Of a stretch of 64,000 bases of DNA, positions 9,179-16,702 are shown piece after piece. Made by a program: the position numbers and the translations under genes. Source of the DNA: Planctomycetota bacterium. GTDB taxonomy: Bacteria; Planctomycetota; Brocadiia; Brocadiales; Brocadiaceae. Below the pieces are notes generated by a model that saw only the letters and a list, made by a program, of their open reading frames with translations, ran no database searches and was not told where the DNA came from. The stretch is from positions 62,001 through 126,000 of the forward strand of contig VGXV01000004.1 of the NCBI GenBank assembly GCA_016873165.1. The letters run 5' to 3'. Position 1 is the first letter of the stretch, and the number at the start of each line of letters is the position of its first letter.

Positions 9179-12100
9179 TTACGCTTCAACTTTTATTAAT
9201 TCACCATTTAAAAATTTCTTCATGAAATCATTCTCGTTACCGGCAGTGTATCCGGTTTTAACAGGATCCCAAACCCCTATTCCACCAATACCGCCATTCT
9301 CGGCTTTTGTAATCTTTACCAGCGTTTCTTTTGGCACAGTATTAATGCAGTGGTTGTCCGCCTCAAAACCAAAAACAAATTTCATACCGATTTTGGCCTT
9401 GTGGAAGAGACTATCCAGCTGATGCATCGGCATCGACCAATCTCTTGTAATACTCTGTTGCGAACCGTAACGGAAGCTGGACTGATACCCTGTTGGCGAC
9501 AAAGCCCTTCCATCCGGTCTTGTTTCGTGCGCCTGCACCGTTCTATCAGACGAAATAAATGCAGAATGTTTCATCATGGTACAGTTATACGGATATGCCG
9601 GATTATACTTTGCCCTCAACATAAGCCTTGAAACCTTATAGAAAGGATCATTTGGTTTCCATCCTTCATACGGCCTGTCAGCGGGGTTAGCATCAACATA
9701 AACATAATCACCGTCTTCAATGCCTAAATCTCTCGCTGCCTGAGGGTGAATATGTATCTGATGCTCACCGACACCCGGCATTCTCTTGTCCATCCTGTAT
9801 GGATCGCCAAAGTTGTTATTCCAGATAAAGTTCCAGTCAGTAACAGCCCATTGCGAATGTACGGTATGCCTTGACTTTGGAGTCACACAATAGAACTGAT
9901 ACCCTTTTTCCCACAAGAAATTCTTCGTTTTCTTTGTTTCTTCCCATGATTTTTTAATATTCCTGACAGTTCTTTCATCCCAATGCTCAGCATTCTCCGG
10001 AATACCATAATCATCCGGCCGGATATAAGGATTTGTGCTTACAATAGCGTTTGGCAAATATGGCGTAGCTTCCGGCCCTTCACGATGGACGATAAAGTTT
10101 TCACCATATTCAATAATTTCAGGTTCGTCATTGTACGCTTGCAACCTTCCTGTTGGGGTATAAAATGGCAAACTTTCGTGTATCTGTTCCCAGAATGGCT
10201 GCCTCGGATAAGTCCGGTATAACATCAATGCAACACCCGGCTCTCCATATTTCCCATTCAATATATCCTCACACGTATACCCTTTCATAGTTGAACTGCC
10301 ATCAAGCAATCTGTTAATGTAAACGCTTGCTCTTCCTTCGAGGGCAAATTTCCAATTGTCCTCAAATCTCTTATCTTTCAGCAATTCTCCTAATTTTGAA
10401 GCCATACCGGCAATTATCTTCACATCATCCTTTGAGTCATACACAGGGGTTATACCCGTTTTTCCCCATATTTGAATAAAAGGATTTGAACAGGAAGTGG
10501 TAATCTCATATTCCTGGAATTCCACCCATGAATTTGCCGGGAATGCAAAGTCAGCATACTCTATTGAACCTGTCACCTCAATATCAGTAGACATAATTTG
10601 CTCGATATTCGGGTTCACATTTTTCAACATTTGGTATACGTGCTTCGCGTTATTAATTAAGTTAACGTTTGTAAACCACATAATCTTCGTAGGTGTAGGC
10701 ATATGCGTCTTTCCGGTAAAGACTTTACGCCCGTATTTTGGAGTATTTACGATGAGTGGCCTTTCGCTGTGGTTCCAGTAGGCAACTTCTTCATCCAATG
10801 CGCGTCCTTTAATCTTTAAGTCCATTGCAGATGCATCCGGATTTAAGTTTGGATTAAATACATCCTCCGCTACCCATGCATAAAATCCAGGACCACTCCA
10901 CTTCGCCGACTGGAAATTACCAGCCTTGTAATTACCGGCCCATGTATGAGAACCAGATCCAAATACACCTACATTGCCTGTCAACATTAATGGCAAATAA
11001 TAGGAACGATTCATCAAGGTGGCATGGAAATAATGATTAACACCTTCACCGCAATGTATTGCAACAGGTTTTATTGTCGCAATATCCTTCGCCAGCATTT
11101 CTATCAGTTCTTTTGGAGAACTGGTCATTTCAACTACTGAATCTATATCATAATCCTTGAGATGTATTTTGTACATTTCAAGCAATGTCATGACCTCAAT
11201 CTCTTTGCCATCAACCGTTTTCAGCTTAAACGAACCTTCCAGCGCAGGGTCTATGCCTTTTTTGATCAATGTATCACCAACATCATCCCTGGTAATCGCT
11301 TTTGGGCCATTTGTTTTTGAATCCCAGACTACAAAATCCCCGATAATCTCCCTTTGATCATCATGTAAACCATGAATATGATAGCTAGGACCCTCAGAAA
11401 TATCCTGCAATTTATAGTTGGGAATAATATCTTTCGGAGATAACCTCTTTAAGGTATCAGTCCTTACCAGCAACGGGAAGTCGGTAAATTTTTTCACATA
11501 ATCGGCATCATACCATTTATTATCGATAAGTATTTTTGTAACACCAAGGTAAAGAGCCGTATCGGTGTTATTTCGAATTGGAATCCAATAATCCGCCTTT
11601 TGGGACGATGGGCTATATTCCGGGGTAATTACAACGATTTTCCCTCCACGCTCTATTACCTGTGTAACCCAATGTGCCTCTGGCATTTTGTTTTCTATCA
11701 AATTTTTTCCCGTTTTAATAAGCAGCTTTGAGAACCGTATGTCATTCATATCGATATCTGAGGTCTGCAACCCGTGGGAAAACGGATGTCCGGGAGCCTG
11801 ATCACCATGCCATGTATAATTCGACCAGTTCCTGCCACCTAATGCCTGATCGGGACTTACCCCTCTGTTGTGGGCATCAACAAGGGCAAGGCAATTGTTA
11901 AACCTGTACATGCCGTATTTTCCGATTACGCCCAAAAGACCCATGCCTCCGCGTCCCTTGAAAGTACGTGTGCCGGCTTCCTGCATCCTATCGACCATTT
12001 CTTTCGGGTATCCCTGGTCAATAAGCTTCTGAGCACCCTCAGGACCGCTATATTTTTTGGTAATATGGATAATTCCCTTTGCCGCATAGGTAAAGGCTTC

Positions 12101-12625
12101 ATCCCACGAAGCTCTTAATAATTCATCATTACCCCTGTTATCAAACATATACCTTGTCTTGTTCTCTGGAGTCAGTTCTGGGAATCCATCGTCCGCCCAC
12201 CTCTTCCACCCTTTTCTGATTAACGGGTATCTAAGCCTGTACGGACCATAAACTCTCCTATGGAACGTATAACCCTTCAAACACATCCTCGGGTTCCAGT
12301 TCCTTGATGCTTTATTCCCATACAAATCAGAATATCTTTGATGATCGTAATTTTGCTCAACCCTCATCATAACGTTGTTTCTCACAAATGCCCTGACTCT
12401 GCAGGCATGGGTATCATTAGGAGAACAACAATAGGTAAATGTACGATCATACTGATATTGGTTTCTGTAAACACTTTCCCATCTACGATCAGGATAGGCA
12501 TCCAACGGATTTCCGACTTCGACTGCAGGTTTTAACAACCTGAACGCCATTGCCTTTTTGGCAAGAGTCAAGGTCGCTCCAGTTGCACCAGCTACCTGTA
12601 GGAAAGTCCTCCTTGTTAACTTCAT
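9179..12625 (-). CDS. nxrA: Nitrite oxidoreductase alpha subunit (Mo-bis-MGD)
   Basis: 1148 residues. A twin-arginine signal is at residues 4-27 (T-R-R-T-F-L-Q). Compared by eye with NarG, the first Fe-S cluster region has Cys67-x3-Asp71-x3-Cys75-x39-Cys115, so Asp appears to take the place of one Cys ligand. Asp275 in W-H-G-D-Q-A-P-G is the likely molybdenum ligand. The protein belongs to the type II DMSO-reductase family, with nitrite oxidoreductase, perchlorate reductase and ethylbenzene dehydrogenase. In anammox bacteria it oxidises nitrite to nitrate inside the anammoxosome and feeds electrons back to carbon fixation. SD AAGGAG is 8 nt before the ATG. Last gene of the core nxr operon. 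Confidence 0.95.
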   Translation of the reverse strand: MKLTRRTFLQVAGATGATLTLAKKAMAFRLLKPAVEVGNPLDAYPDRRWESVYRNQYQYDRTFTYCCSPNDTHACRVRAFVRNNVMMRVEQNYDHQRYSDLYGNKASRNWNPRMCLKGYTFHRRVYGPYRLRYPLIRKGWKRWADDGFPELTPENKTRYMFDNRGNDELLRASWDEAFTYAAKGIIHITKKYSGPEGAQKLIDQGYPKEMVDRMQEAGTRTFKGRGGMGLLGVIGKYGMYRFNNCLALVDAHNRGVSPDQALGGRNWSNYTWHGDQAPGHPFSHGLQTSDIDMNDIRFSKLLIKTGKNLIENKMPEAHWVTQVIERGGKIVVITPEYSPSSQKADYWIPIRNNTDTALYLGVTKILIDNKWYDADYVKKFTDFPLLVRTDTLKRLSPKDIIPNYKLQDISEGPSYHIHGLHDDQREIIGDFVVWDSKTNGPKAITRDDVGDTLIKKGIDPALEGSFKLKTVDGKEIEVMTLLEMYKIHLKDYDIDSVVEMTSSPKELIEMLAKDIATIKPVAIHCGEGVNHYFHATLMNRSYYLPLMLTGNVGVFGSGSHTWAGNYKAGNFQSAKWSGPGFYAWVAEDVFNPNLNPDASAMDLKIKGRALDEEVAYWNHSERPLIVNTPKYGRKVFTGKTHMPTPTKIMWFTNVNLINNAKHVYQMLKNVNPNIEQIMSTDIEVTGSIEYADFAFPANSWVEFQEYEITTSCSNPFIQIWGKTGITPVYDSKDDVKIIAGMASKLGELLKDKRFEDNWKFALEGRASVYINRLLDGSSTMKGYTCEDILNGKYGEPGVALMLYRTYPRQPFWEQIHESLPFYTPTGRLQAYNDEPEIIEYGENFIVHREGPEATPYLPNAIVSTNPYIRPDDYGIPENAEHWDERTVRNIKKSWEETKKTKNFLWEKGYQFYCVTPKSRHTVHSQWAVTDWNFIWNNNFGDPYRMDKRMPGVGEHQIHIHPQAARDLGIEDGDYVYVDANPADRPYEGWKPNDPFYKVSRLMLRAKYNPAYPYNCTMMKHSAFISSDRTVQAHETRPDGRALSPTGYQSSFRYGSQQSITRDWSMPMHQLDSLFHKAKIGMKFVFGFEADNHCINTVPKETLVKITKAENGGIGGIGVWDPVKTGYTAGNENDFMKKFLNGELIKVEA

Positions 12626-12667: not shown

Positions 12668-13633
12668 TTATATACTATGATGAGAAATCGCTCTTCTCGA
12701 TTTATACATTTCAACACATCGGTTACAAGCGCCATCTTCCGGGGACCAGTTGGGAAAATCCTGTCTGATATCCTGAACCGTTTCAACATCTTCTTCGAGA
12801 TTTTCCACCCACTTGTAAGTCCGAAACTGGCACAAAGGACAAAGAGATCCTGGCAAAAGCAATTTTTTCCGCCTCATGTTTTCGGGAATTTTGTCATCAG
12901 CAATATCCAAAACTTTATGAACATCAGTCGCTAATTCCAATATCCTTCCATGAGTGAGATTTTCATCATTCCACAAAACCTCAAAAATCACTCTTTTCGC
13001 TTCTTCCGGAAACCCCATATAAAGAGCACAAAATTCTTTATACCTGCCTTCTTTGCTTCCAACAGCCTCTTTGCCATTCCTCAAAATGCGGCTATCAACA
13101 TAAATATCCCAAAAAGTACTGTACCGTTCTGTTATAATGCTTTGCTCCATAGGATTTCCCCCCAGAAATTCGCTTTTATAACAAAACGTATCGCTCAACA
13201 TGTCAAGAATATGCATTAGCTCGTGCCGTAAGAATTTCAGCAGGAAGCTCTGATCATGAAAACGTTCAGCTAATAACTTTAGCTTGATTCGTTTTTTTGC
13301 GATTTTTTGATTCAAATCTCTTACAAGGTCGGAACCCTCATCAAATTTGTTCTTTGCCCTTACAATTACTGCCCCGGTTACAAGTTTTTCCAATTCACTA
13401 AATTCACTGAAAGCCTTTTCAATCAAAGTAACAAAACCGAGCTTATTAAAGAAATCCCACTCAACCTTTCTGAATTGTTTTGGCCGTTCTTCAAGGGAAA
13501 ATTCCTCGTAAATCGGATCTACGAGAAGGTGATATTCCTCGGAAAGTTTCATATTCCCTTGTTCTTCTTTCTGCCGGATCTCTTTGAACACAACATCTTC
13601 AATTAAACCTGGCTCAAACTCAAGGTGCACCAT
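12668..13633 (-). CDS. Uncharacterised HExxH protein within the nxr operon
   Basis: 321 residues, no signal peptide. It carries H-E-L-M-H at 137-141, the signature of zincin metallopeptidases, followed by a conserved-looking acidic segment (W-D-I-Y-V-D-S-R near 175-182). C-terminal pairs C265-x2-C268 and C303-x2-C306 form a treble-clef or zinc-knuckle pattern. Its start overlaps the chaperone stop (TAATG) and it ends 42 nt before nxrA, so it is co-expressed with the enzyme. I infer a cytoplasmic maturation or quality-control role. I do not recognise a named family, and peptidase activity is only suggested by the motif. Confidence 0.7.
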   Translation of the reverse strand: MVHLEFEPGLIEDVVFKEIRQKEEQGNMKLSEEYHLLVDPIYEEFSLEERPKQFRKVEWDFFNKLGFVTLIEKAFSEFSELEKLVTGAVIVRAKNKFDEGSDLVRDLNQKIAKKRIKLKLLAERFHDQSFLLKFLRHELMHILDMLSDTFCYKSEFLGGNPMEQSIITERYSTFWDIYVDSRILRNGKEAVGSKEGRYKEFCALYMGFPEEAKRVIFEVLWNDENLTHGRILELATDVHKVLDIADDKIPENMRRKKLLLPGSLCPLCQFRTYKWVENLEEDVETVQDIRQDFPNWSPEDGACNRCVEMYKSRRAISHHSI

Positions 13634-14430
13634 TAGTTATCTCCCGTCCCATCAACAGAACCGGAACACGACAAACATTCATCAGGCACTCCTGCAACGG
13701 CATCCTGGTTCAGATCGGACTCTTTAAACATTTCGGTCTGCACTCCCAAAAGCTCCATTTCCAACTTCATAAATTCCTTTGTTACTTCAGACAGGGCAAA
13801 ATAAAAACCTTCCACAGACCTTCTTCCGAAAAGAAGGGCAAAAAGAGGCACCCATTTCCCTGCATGTTCTCTTAAAAATTTTTTCTGGGCATCCAGACAA
13901 ATTTCAACCTCTTCCTTTCCATGATTTTCTAACGCATATGCCTGTTTATAAAGGAGAAACTGCATAAATTCCAACTCTACACTCACATGATCGCACCGCT
14001 CTTTTTCTTCCTCAGAAATATCCAGGCCAAATGCCTTATAAAACCCCTGAATGTCTGCCAAATCCTGAACTTGCTGGAAAACATGAGCAGCGCCATATTG
14101 TCCTTCATATAGTGGACATTCTTTTGATATGGTATGCCCGACTATACGATTATATATACTCTGTAATTTTTCCACATCAGCATTGCAATAGAGTTCCTGC
14201 AAGTTTTTCAAAGATTTTACCATTGCCGACAAAGAATCACTTTCCCCATAGCACCCTTCTATCGTATCCACCAGCTCCGTAAAATCTTCCCCTTTTAACA
14301 AGGAGAGTTTTTCTTCTTCAGGAAATAGATAACAAGCAGATAAAACCTGATATACCGCGCTTCGCGCCAGCAAACACTCGATTTCTGCCATGTGTTCATT
14401 TTCCTGAAGACCACTATTCTTAACAACCAT
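13633..14430 (-). CDS. TorD/NarJ-type molybdoenzyme chaperone
   Basis: About 265 residues of helical protein with the TorD-family pattern: E-C-P-L-Y-E-G-Q-Y, then D-I-Q-G-F-Y-K-A-F-G-L, then the H-V-S-V-E-L-E-F-M helix. Such chaperones bind the Tat signal and insert Mo-bis-MGD into the alpha subunit before export. An upstream TTG (14442) is in frame, but ATG 14430 has GGGGA five nt ahead and is the better start. It is 14 nt from nxrB and overlaps the next gene by one base. It should serve NxrA. Confidence 0.85.
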   Translation of the reverse strand: MVVKNSGLQENEHMAEIECLLARSAVYQVLSACYLFPEEEKLSLLKGEDFTELVDTIEGCYGESDSLSAMVKSLKNLQELYCNADVEKLQSIYNRIVGHTISKECPLYEGQYGAAHVFQQVQDLADIQGFYKAFGLDISEEEKERCDHVSVELEFMQFLLYKQAYALENHGKEEVEICLDAQKKFLREHAGKWVPLFALLFGRRSVEGFYFALSEVTKEFMKLEMELLGVQTEMFKESDLNQDAVAGVPDECLSCSGSVDGTGDN

Positions 14431-14444
14431 AAAATTCCCCAAAA

Positions 14445-15677
14445 TTAAATTGAGTTAGAATGCTTATCAGGCCTTACATGAACCGGTTCTTCAATGGTAG
14501 TCCTTACAACTTCTTTTCCATCTGCATCAAACCCGATCACCGTATCGTTGTACATTTCAAACTTTTTGCCATGAATTGTCGTTTCATAGACCTTCGGACC
14601 TTCTTCAATCTTATATTCAAAAATTATGGTCTGCGCCATCCTAAACAATGACATAACCGCCAGCAATTCCCTGGAAGGCACCATAAACTTTTCAATAGCT
14701 TCATCTACACCTGGACCAAACATCTGCCTCAAATATGCCCTTGGAGCCCATCTTGGCGGAATATAATAGATATTCGGCTCTGTTCCGAATTGCGGATACA
14801 GTGGCAATGCAATTTTATGATGTCTTACTAACCAGGTAATAGGATTTTTCGGATTATCGTCAAGGAAACCCTGCAAGCGAATCTGGCCAACGCAAGCAGA
14901 CATACATCTTGTTTCCATCGGTTTTCCTTCAGTAAGAGGATCGCGTCCCTCTATCCTGGGATAACAGGCAATACATTTTTCGCTCACCCTCGTCAAACCC
15001 CTATACATCGGTTTCTTATAAGGACACTGCTCTACACACTTCCTGTATCCACGACACCTCTTTTGATCTATCAGCACGATCCCATCTTCTTTTCTCTTGT
15101 AAATCGCTTTTCTCGGACAGGCCGCCAAACATCCGGGATAAGTACAGTGATTACATATCCTCTGAATATAAAAAAACCAACGACTATGCTCAGGCAACGT
15201 TGAATACTCACCCGGCTGGTTGCTGCTCTTTGCCGTATCTTCTCCAAAATTCGGCGATCTCCATTCTTTGTCTTCAGGAATATATCCTACCGCCCACTGA
15301 TTAATATTTTTCTTTTTTGCCGCCTCAAAAATTGTGTCCCCTTCATATGTGCCATAAGGCGCCCCTGTGCCATAAGGAGAAGCTTCTTTATCCTTATCAT
15401 CTGTATACCAAACGTTATCGGGGTTATCTATCAACCTTAACGTCTTAACATCCCATGACTGGGGATACCCACCATAAGGCTTTGTCTCGACGTTATTCCA
15501 CCACATGAATTCCTGCCCCTTATTGAAAGTCCAGGTACTTTTACATGCCATAGTACAGGTTTGACATGCAATACACCTGTTAATATTAAACACGGCAGCA
15601 AATTGATGCTTCGGCCTGGATTCAAAATAGGGATATTCCATACGTCTCCCTAAATGCCAGTTATGTACAAGTGTCAT
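14445..15677 (-). CDS. nxrB: Nitrite oxidoreductase beta subunit (Fe-S)
   Basis: 410 residues with four Fe-S binding groups. C35-x2-C38-x2-C41-x3-C45 comes first, then C175-x2-C178-x4-C183-x3-C187. The third is C208-x2-Tyr211-x2-C214-x3-C218, where Tyr replaces the fourth ligand; NarH has Trp there and binds [3Fe-4S]. The last is C235-x2-C238-x19-C258-x3-C262. It relays electrons between NxrA and the haem subunit. It has no signal of its own, which fits export with Tat-tagged NxrA. SD AAAGGAGA. It follows nxrC by 53 nt. Confidence 0.95.
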   Translation of the reverse strand: MTLVHNWHLGRRMEYPYFESRPKHQFAAVFNINRCIACQTCTMACKSTWTFNKGQEFMWWNNVETKPYGGYPQSWDVKTLRLIDNPDNVWYTDDKDKEASPYGTGAPYGTYEGDTIFEAAKKKNINQWAVGYIPEDKEWRSPNFGEDTAKSSNQPGEYSTLPEHSRWFFYIQRICNHCTYPGCLAACPRKAIYKRKEDGIVLIDQKRCRGYRKCVEQCPYKKPMYRGLTRVSEKCIACYPRIEGRDPLTEGKPMETRCMSACVGQIRLQGFLDDNPKNPITWLVRHHKIALPLYPQFGTEPNIYYIPPRWAPRAYLRQMFGPGVDEAIEKFMVPSRELLAVMSLFRMAQTIIFEYKIEEGPKVYETTIHGKKFEMYNDTVIGFDADGKEVVRTTIEEPVHVRPDKHSNSI

Positions 15678-15730: not shown

Positions 15731-16702
15731 TTATTGCCATGCAATTCTTTCCAATGCCAACGGATGCCATTGGGTAGAGATGTTCTTTTGGCCGTTTCTA
15801 TCTTCTTTATCACCATTCCAGACAGCCATATTGAAATAAGTGCTTTCTCCGGGCACAAACTGAACATCAAGCGGATCATTAGAATTCAATAACCGGTAAA
15901 AGATAACCGTCCATTTACTATTTTCGTATTTACTGCATGCGTTTACATCCTGATGATCCTGGGAAGTTAATGTGCCAAATCCTTCCGCATTTAAATCTTC
16001 AACTGTCCTGCCCCGATTAGGCATAGAAAGCAAATTATGCGCAGAAACTCCTCCGGCTAAAACTGCCGCACTCTGCATCAGCCCTTTGTGATAGTTTACG
16101 CTGTGCGGATTCGTGCTAAAGTCGTCATGCATATTAGGATATCGAACAGGACATTCTTCAATACCTCCGCTTGCAACCATATCTGCTTCCCAATCCGCCT
16201 TCCAATGCCATAAATTTACCGGTTTTTGCCTGTCACCCATTCGAGGACTAAATTTTTCATCAGTGCTGACCACTACCTTTCCCAGAGGAAACATAAGGGC
16301 AACCCCATCCCTAAACTCCTGAGTGGCAATTGCCTGCGCATTTTTTGTCGCATCGTCCCATGATACTTGAAAATAAATTGCAGTCCCATCGTGAACAGCC
16401 TTTACTTCTGCGGCATTTACAGAGCCTCCTCCATTGGGAAATGCTTTGTCTTGCTTCTGCAATTTCACCTGAACCCCTTCCGCATCCTTAAGCGCTTTCT
16501 CTAAAGAACACACCGTAACATCCTTCGGGCAATCAAACTCCACAAATTTTACATTTAATACCTCTTTGGTAGGCGTAAATTCTTCTTCCGCCATACCTTT
16601 CACCCCCTCTGCCTCCTCAGCAACACAGAGTGTTGCGCTCAAAAACAAACATCCTAGGAGGGCTACTCCATAACTTCTCAATAAGCGATAAAACTTTTTC
16701 AT
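15731..16702 (-). CDS. nxrC: Nitrite oxidoreductase gamma subunit (haem b, EB_dh-like)
   Basis: 323 residues with a signal peptide (1-28). The remainder resembles the ethylbenzene dehydrogenase gamma-type haem-b domain: V-S-W-D-D-A-T strand, L-W-H-W-K-A-D-W-E and a C-terminal W-N-G-D segment. There is no CxxCH, as expected for non-covalent haem b. It is the exit or entry point for electrons to c-type cytochromes. Very strong SD (GGGAGGAGAGGG). First gene of the nxr operon, preceded by 0.9 kb of non-coding DNA. Confidence 0.9.
   Translation of the reverse strand: MKKFYRLLRSYGVALLGCLFLSATLCVAEEAEGVKGMAEEEFTPTKEVLNVKFVEFDCPKDVTVCSLEKALKDAEGVQVKLQKQDKAFPNGGGSVNAAEVKAVHDGTAIYFQVSWDDATKNAQAIATQEFRDGVALMFPLGKVVVSTDEKFSPRMGDRQKPVNLWHWKADWEADMVASGGIEECPVRYPNMHDDFSTNPHSVNYHKGLMQSAAVLAGGVSAHNLLSMPNRGRTVEDLNAEGFGTLTSQDHQDVNACSKYENSKWTVIFYRLLNSNDPLDVQFVPGESTYFNMAVWNGDKEDRNGQKNISTQWHPLALERIAWQ

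Follow-up and report, generated by a model that had tools for sequence, protein, structure and literature searches.

HEMP, an HExxH protein encoded in the nxr operon, as a candidate biogenesis factor for one clade of planctomycete NXR

The gene at positions 12668-13633 of the window (the whole stretch of 64,000 nucleotides analysed here, from a Kuenenia genome) encodes a protein whose family we name HEMP. We consider, with a rough probability of 0.58, that HEMP works in the cytoplasm beside the chaperone TorD as a biogenesis factor dedicated to one clade of NXR. Four computed observations carry this reading: the specificity of the family for NXR, its clustered origin on the NxrA tree, a purifying selection similar to that on TorD, and the repeated loss of the HExxH motif while linkage to nxr genes is kept.

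The gene and its operon

The genes of the nxr operon lie on the minus strand of the window in the order nxrC, nxrB, torD, HEMP and nxrA. The operon and the parts of HEMP are as follows.

15731-16702, minus strand: nxrC, haem b subunit (TIGR03477, E 3.8e-37)
14445-15677, minus strand: nxrB, iron-sulfur subunit (TIGR03478, E 1.2e-83)
13633-14442, minus strand: TorD/NarJ-type NXR chaperone, orthologue of kustd1702 (Pfam PF02613, E 9.5e-20; TIGR03482, E 1.9e-26, under its cut-off)
12668-13633, minus strand: HEMP, orthologue of kustd1701, 321 amino acids (sequence; cluster position as in PMC6423088)
13382-13633, minus strand: all-helical N-terminal part of HEMP, residues 1-84, with conserved Y42, R50 and F62 (AlphaFold2 model and conservation)
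13274-13381, minus strand: three predicted beta-strands, residues 85-92, 100-105 and 114-120, before the motif helix (AlphaFold2 model)
13211-13225, minus strand: HELMH, residues 137-141, within helix 128-146 and followed by conserved D144 (sequence, model, conservation)
13094-13096, minus strand: D180, within helix 161-185, a candidate for the third metal ligand (model and conservation)
12830-12841, minus strand: zinc-ribbon pair 1, C265-P-L-C268 (sequence, conservation)
12716-12727, minus strand: zinc-ribbon pair 2, C303-N-R-C306 (sequence, conservation)
9179-12625, minus strand: nxrA, catalytic Mo subunit with a Tat-like N terminus (TIGR03479, E 1.4e-103, under its cut-off)

The HEMP open reading frame starts with ATG, preceded by a Shine-Dalgarno-like GGGAG, and shares base 13633 with torD through the sequence TAATG; nxrA is the next gene downstream, after a gap of 42 bases. 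The placement between the TorD-like chaperone and nxrA and the one-base overlap, both described in a first-pass annotation of this DNA, agree with the ORF call and with the sequence, and HELMH and the two C-x2-C pairs are present as described there. When the protein was shuffled 20,000 times, HExxH arose in 2.6%, two CxxC pairs in 0.16% and both together in 0.005% of the shuffles; among the 44 ORFs of at least 150 amino acids in the window, HEMP is the only one with HExxH. No signal peptide was seen in its sequence, by which HEMP would be cytoplasmic.

By position and gene order HEMP is the orthologue of Kuenenia stuttgartiensis kustd1701, entered there as 'Unknown protein' (PMC6423088). Purified NXR and its tubules are reported to comprise kustd1700, 1703 and 1704 plus 1705 (A, B, C and T), without 1701 (PMC8387239). 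A genome paper from 2013 names a 'putative zinc finger' protein that the nxr gene sets of Kuenenia, Nitrospira and Nitrospina have in common (PMC3578206); this is probably the product of the HEMP gene. The available portions of these two sources (PMC6423088, PMC3578206) make no mention of HExxH, a zincin-like fold, a planctomycete-wide family or the pattern of losses, and a literature search found no paper on these features of HEMP.

In a NO-fed reactor the HEMP transcript of K. stuttgartiensis was present and went down 5.5-fold with the whole nxr cluster (PMC6423088). At the protein level the same study reports NxrA, NxrB and NxrC as detected and HEMP and TorD as undetected, in a single proteome that does not prove low abundance (PMC6423088). 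HEMP has a dN/dS of 0.11-0.12 in a comparison of two Kuenenia species, TorD one of 0.09-0.10, and partial NxrA and NxrB one of about 0.03; purifying selection on HEMP is therefore as strong as on the chaperone, and not as strong as on the enzyme. HEMP resembles the TorD/NarJ/DmsD chaperones of Mo enzymes in operon position, transcript behaviour and selection pressure, but has no sequence relation to them: PF02613 matches the neighbour at 13633-14442, not HEMP.

Occurrence in anammox bacteria and across Planctomycetota

The sample consisted of 392 Planctomycetota genomes, mostly draft assemblies, searched with a HEMP profile and separately with NxrA. These profile searches replaced a pattern-based contig search that reached close relatives of Brocadia only. 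Co-occurrence was counted by hand from the two result tables, and the names given to f4 and other families are inferred.

Among Brocadiaceae (f1), genomes in which the main nxr region is intact carry HEMP at the same site; those in which HEMP or nxrA is missing (G006, G018, G032) are contig-end cases. In the f4 genomes, Scalindua-like by inference, HEMP is found at 36-40% identity, likewise between torD and nxrA. The gene is not restricted to anammox bacteria: other planctomycetes carry it, and full-length relatives occur far outside the order Brocadiales.

Where the best NxrA reaches 59% identity or more to that of the window, 51 of 54 genomes carry HEMP, and in the three misses (G006, G111, G297) a contig end cuts nxrA; full-length HEMP was found in none of the 29 genomes with an NxrA of 40-58% identity. 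In the remaining genomes HEMP without NxrA is genuine only in G094, as G018, G097 and G371 carry nxrA fragments. Genomes of f2 have NXR without HEMP. In a search of plasmids, HEMP gave no match and NxrA five distant records.

In 24 of the 27 members outside Brocadiales the HEMP gene adjoins or clusters with nxrA, nxrB or torD; of the other three, two lie at contig ends and one is a second copy. Three arrangements occur: HEMP separates the haem-subunit gene from nxrA, closes the operon behind torD, or otherwise lies directly beside nxrA. Because the order differs in this way among the non-Brocadiales members, the linkage of HEMP to nxr has been kept despite shuffling of the genes.

The co-occurrence counts are not independent events, and the NxrA tree is the better measure. 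On this tree (a quick LG+G4 tree with some long branches) the HEMP-free rows need 2 changes, compared with a mean of 17.8 after shuffling, so that the trait fits one gain, at the root of a single clade of NxrA. One of the two changes is G111, with its nxrA cut by the contig end, and is probably an artefact. The dedication to NXR proposed in the first-pass annotation is supported by this phylum-wide association with one NxrA clade, and by the transcript of K. stuttgartiensis falling with the nxr cluster (PMC6423088).

Two loci stand apart. In G094 (L078 5027-6789) a torD-HEMP pair lies near an aconitase gene; neither nxrA nor nxrB was detected in its neighbourhood, and the genome as a whole gave no match to NxrA. 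In L090 an ORF of 733 amino acids may join HEMP to an additional N-terminal part that has no Pfam match; this ORF may be over-long, in GC-rich DNA.

Predicted fold and a stand-alone paralogue

Searched against Pfam, NCBIfam and the PDB sequences, the HEMP sequence of the window matched nothing beyond chance. An AlphaFold2 model from 26 sequences (mean pLDDT 88.5) places helices at residues 1-84, strands at 85-92, 100-105 and 114-120, a helix with HExxH at 128-146, a further helix at 161-185 that bears R170, W175, D180 and R182, and a C-terminal ribbon. This order of strands and helices is that of the minigluzincins. Foldseek found no significant match to the model in the PDB, the best being 4l7a, a zinc metallopeptidase (E 0.061). 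The model shows a zincin-like order of secondary structure, with no individually significant fold match.

A stand-alone paralogue of about 215 amino acids, present in other Brocadiales (f2, f4), carries HELMH and the block RRYKYLWNVYIDSRL. Its profile aligns to HEMP with an hhalign probability of 99.6, and the two are therefore clearly homologous. Against the PDB this profile finds MJ1213 (selecase, E 0.0076), in an alignment that ends on HExxH, and the paralogue model (pLDDT 91.1) has yeast Wss1 as its top Foldseek match (probability 1.00, E 0.029). Pfam M76 (PF09768) is weakly matched by 5 of 21 paralogues (best E 7.5e-4, 19.7 bits against a cut-off of 25.2), and the SprT-like PF10263 reaches 15.7 bits against a cut-off of 25.6 in one Scalindua-like member, only 2 of 40 members matching it with an E of 0.1 or less. 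A minigluzincin-like domain in HEMP is likely, and we infer from the present data its fold, its binding of zinc and its action with TorD in the cytoplasm.

The minigluzincin zincins, here selecase/projannalysin MJ1213, the WLM domain of Wss1 and SprT, have in common with the HEMP model three strands, a helix with HExxH and a later helix with an acidic residue; the paralogue matches MJ1213 by profile and Wss1 by fold, the Pfam matches to SprT and WLM being weak. HEMP differs from them in its additional N-terminal helical part and zinc ribbon, in an HExxH that is degenerate in many members, in its linkage to nxr and not to DNA repair, and in the lack of a Pfam family at cut-off. HEMP would probably have originated from a stand-alone zincin-like protein and would have gained the N-terminal helical part and the C-terminal zinc ribbon on joining the nxr operon.

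Peptidase M76 (Atp23) has the motif HELxHxxD, of a type shared with HEMP. The paralogue matches to this family are under the cut-off; the HEMP of the window does not match PF09768, and HEMP stands outside any mitochondrial inner-membrane system. In yeast, Atp23 processes Atp6 and also assists the assembly of ATP synthase, through separate residues (PMC8877559); as an analogy only, this dual role in processing and assembly may offer a parallel for HEMP.

The paralogue was considered as a further NXR factor and rejected, as it sits in an operon with TRCF and a SurA-type PPIase (f2) or near an MgsA-type AAA gene (f4). At its loci (L114 1225-6246, L115 5075-6733 and L120 3407-5689) it shares an operon with TRCF (mfd) and the PPIase where the genome belongs to f2, and neighbours a AAA gene of MgsA/RarA type where it belongs to f4. 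It constitutes a separate HExxH family, with no Pfam model above cut-off.

Among the Foldseek matches of the paralogue, structures of IrrE/PprI rank low (E 0.8-1.6), and zinc ribbons in general are frequent nucleic-acid binders. Both points would suit a regulator of the nxr operon, in which a zincin-fold sensor comparable to the IrrE/PprI-type gluzincins responds to the state of NXR or to a metal and controls expression. HEMP matches no DNA-binding family in Pfam or NCBIfam, however, and its gene lies within the operon, where torD or nxrA is its neighbour and no recognised repressor gene accompanies it, and we regard regulation as the most improbable of the functions considered.

Fate of the HExxH motif and the zinc ribbon

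The first-pass annotation suggested that the protein is a dedicated maturation or quality-control protease for NXR. Across all 34 distinct sequences from Brocadiaceae and Scalindua-like genomes, H137, E138, H141, D144, D180, R182 and the four cysteines are invariant, while the x positions 139 and 140 of the motif vary. Outside the anammox families, however, HExxH is intact in 16 and broken in 13 of 29 members (for example RAELVR, RREFLH and RNEWRH). The losses require 8 changes on the best HEMP tree, for which the motif columns were left out, and at least 4 on well-supported branches. Most genomes with a broken motif have one family match each, with no intact second copy detected, and the linkage to NXR persists in these members. 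E138, D144, R170 and W175 are kept in nearly all members; position 180 is D or E in 23 of the 29 non-anammox members.

This pattern bears on a rival reading in which HEMP serves NXR as a dedicated protease for processing or quality control, with peptide-bond hydrolysis at the HELMH zinc site as its essential activity. The invariant H137, E138, H141 and D180 of the anammox sequences, between which the x positions are free to vary, the zincin-like order of strands and helices, and an acidic residue at 180 in most other members, as for a metal ligand, are what such a protease would have. Nevertheless we consider it unlikely, given the breakage of HExxH in 13 of 29 other members with at least four forced changes, and given that L074-L077 keep HExxH and have G or A at position 180. 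Moreover, a clade-specific tail or insertion of NxrA that would need cleavage was sought by comparison with HEMP-free clades and not seen, residue column 631 being the only extra position in HEMP-clade NxrA. The losses of HExxH, the kept linkage and the lack of an NxrA tail together imply that the shared function is hardly peptide hydrolysis. The dedication to NXR in the earlier proposal is supported, and a zincin-like order is predicted; proteolysis as a general function is not supported. The task common to the family probably lies in assembly or quality control and not in cleavage, and HEMP is possibly, as judged from its residues, an active peptidase in some lineages only, those of anammox bacteria included.

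The cysteine ribbon is kept more often than the HExxH motif, in 23 compared with 16 of the 29 non-anammox members. A second alternative would make this ribbon the active part, with HEMP as a carrier or insertase of a metal or cofactor for NXR (for example Mo-bisMGD or the FS0 cluster) that does not act by proteolysis. The FS0 cluster of NXR has an unusual Asp ligand (PMC8387239), and the NxrA of the HEMP clade is marked by only eight scattered residues, among them S68 beside the FS0 ligand Cys67. But the ribbon is absent in six members (the f5 pair, L092, L094, L097 and L098), and some NxrA of the HEMP clade have Cys as FS0 ligand 71 with no obvious matching change in HEMP, and a carrier function appears improbable to us. 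With the ribbon lost in six members and HExxH in 13 of 29, neither part is universal.

As an observation on the enzyme itself, the FS0 Asp ligand (D71 in the numbering of the window NxrA) is replaced by Cys in the NxrA of L074, L076, L077, L079, L081 and L090. Cys71 in these non-anammox planctomycete NXRs could, by sequence, yield an FS0 cluster with four Cys ligands. A comparison of TorD and NxrB between the HEMP clade and HEMP-free operons gave no notable clade-specific pattern, only G370 of NxrB.

Proposed function

As a biogenesis factor, HEMP would act with TorD on NxrA or on the NxrA-NxrB pair, ahead of Tat export, and would bind folding intermediates through its zinc ribbon and minigluzincin-type domain. 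In planctomycetes with a broken site it would act by binding only, in the manner of a pseudoprotease. In the anammox families, because the metal site is complete, a peptidase step may exist, either the removal of misassembled NxrA or a limited cut; the exact client of HEMP, and any cleavage, are guesses on our part. Several observations count against the biogenesis reading: the torD-HEMP pair of G094 without NxrA, some second nxrA copies without HEMP, the NXR of f2 without HEMP, the six members that lack the zinc ribbon, and the want of a significant fold match for HEMP itself.

A more far-reaching version, which we put forward tentatively and hold to be doubtful as a whole, is that HEMP represents a new class of Mo-enzyme maturation factors. 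A minigluzincin fold would have been recruited once, at the base of one NXR clade, as an assembly checkpoint together with TorD; it would have become a pseudoprotease repeatedly in non-anammox lineages. Anammox bacteria would have kept it as a complete metalloprotease that, ahead of Tat export, would remove or trim any NxrA in which cofactor loading has failed. To our knowledge, a minigluzincin-like fold has not been reported as a dedicated maturation factor of a Mo enzyme.

We likewise know of no worked-out account of how NxrA is loaded with its molybdenum cofactor and unusual iron-sulfur cluster and then exported. An additional biogenesis gene whose occurrence follows a single NXR clade would account for part of this process, would be a candidate for the missing component in heterologous production of NXR, and would serve as a genome marker of its clade. 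The repeated loss of the catalytic motif with the linkage kept constitutes a natural experiment that sets binding apart from cleavage. The enzyme concerned is the source of nearly all nitrate in nature (PMC8387239).

Further observations on nxr loci

Several Brocadiaceae genomes (L111, L112, L113, L044 and G014:C1:762993-766118) have a second nxrA with no HEMP adjoining and mostly without torD; the copy in G014 (G014:C1:762993-766118) contains four in-frame TGA codons. Paired cysteines (ECLSC, CDSC, CASC) are frequent in the C-terminal tails of TorD proteins from NXR operons, that at 13633-14442 of the window included, and such tails occur with or without HEMP in the operon.

Scalindua-like genomes encode, between nxrB and torD, a protein of about 200 amino acids that has an apparent signal peptide and corresponds to HEMP in its zinc ribbon only (CPLCxxxTYFWL...DFPGWxxxDGxCRNCFECY), at the following loci.

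L034 8420-9055: ribbon-only protein
L035 8050-8664: ribbon-only protein
L036 4141-4773: ribbon-only protein
L037 9110-9703: ribbon-only protein
L038 1833-2438: ribbon-only protein
L039 8750-9304: ribbon-only protein
L133 2688-3284: ribbon-only protein

This protein may be an exported partner of NXR, and it suggests that the zinc ribbon itself binds NXR.
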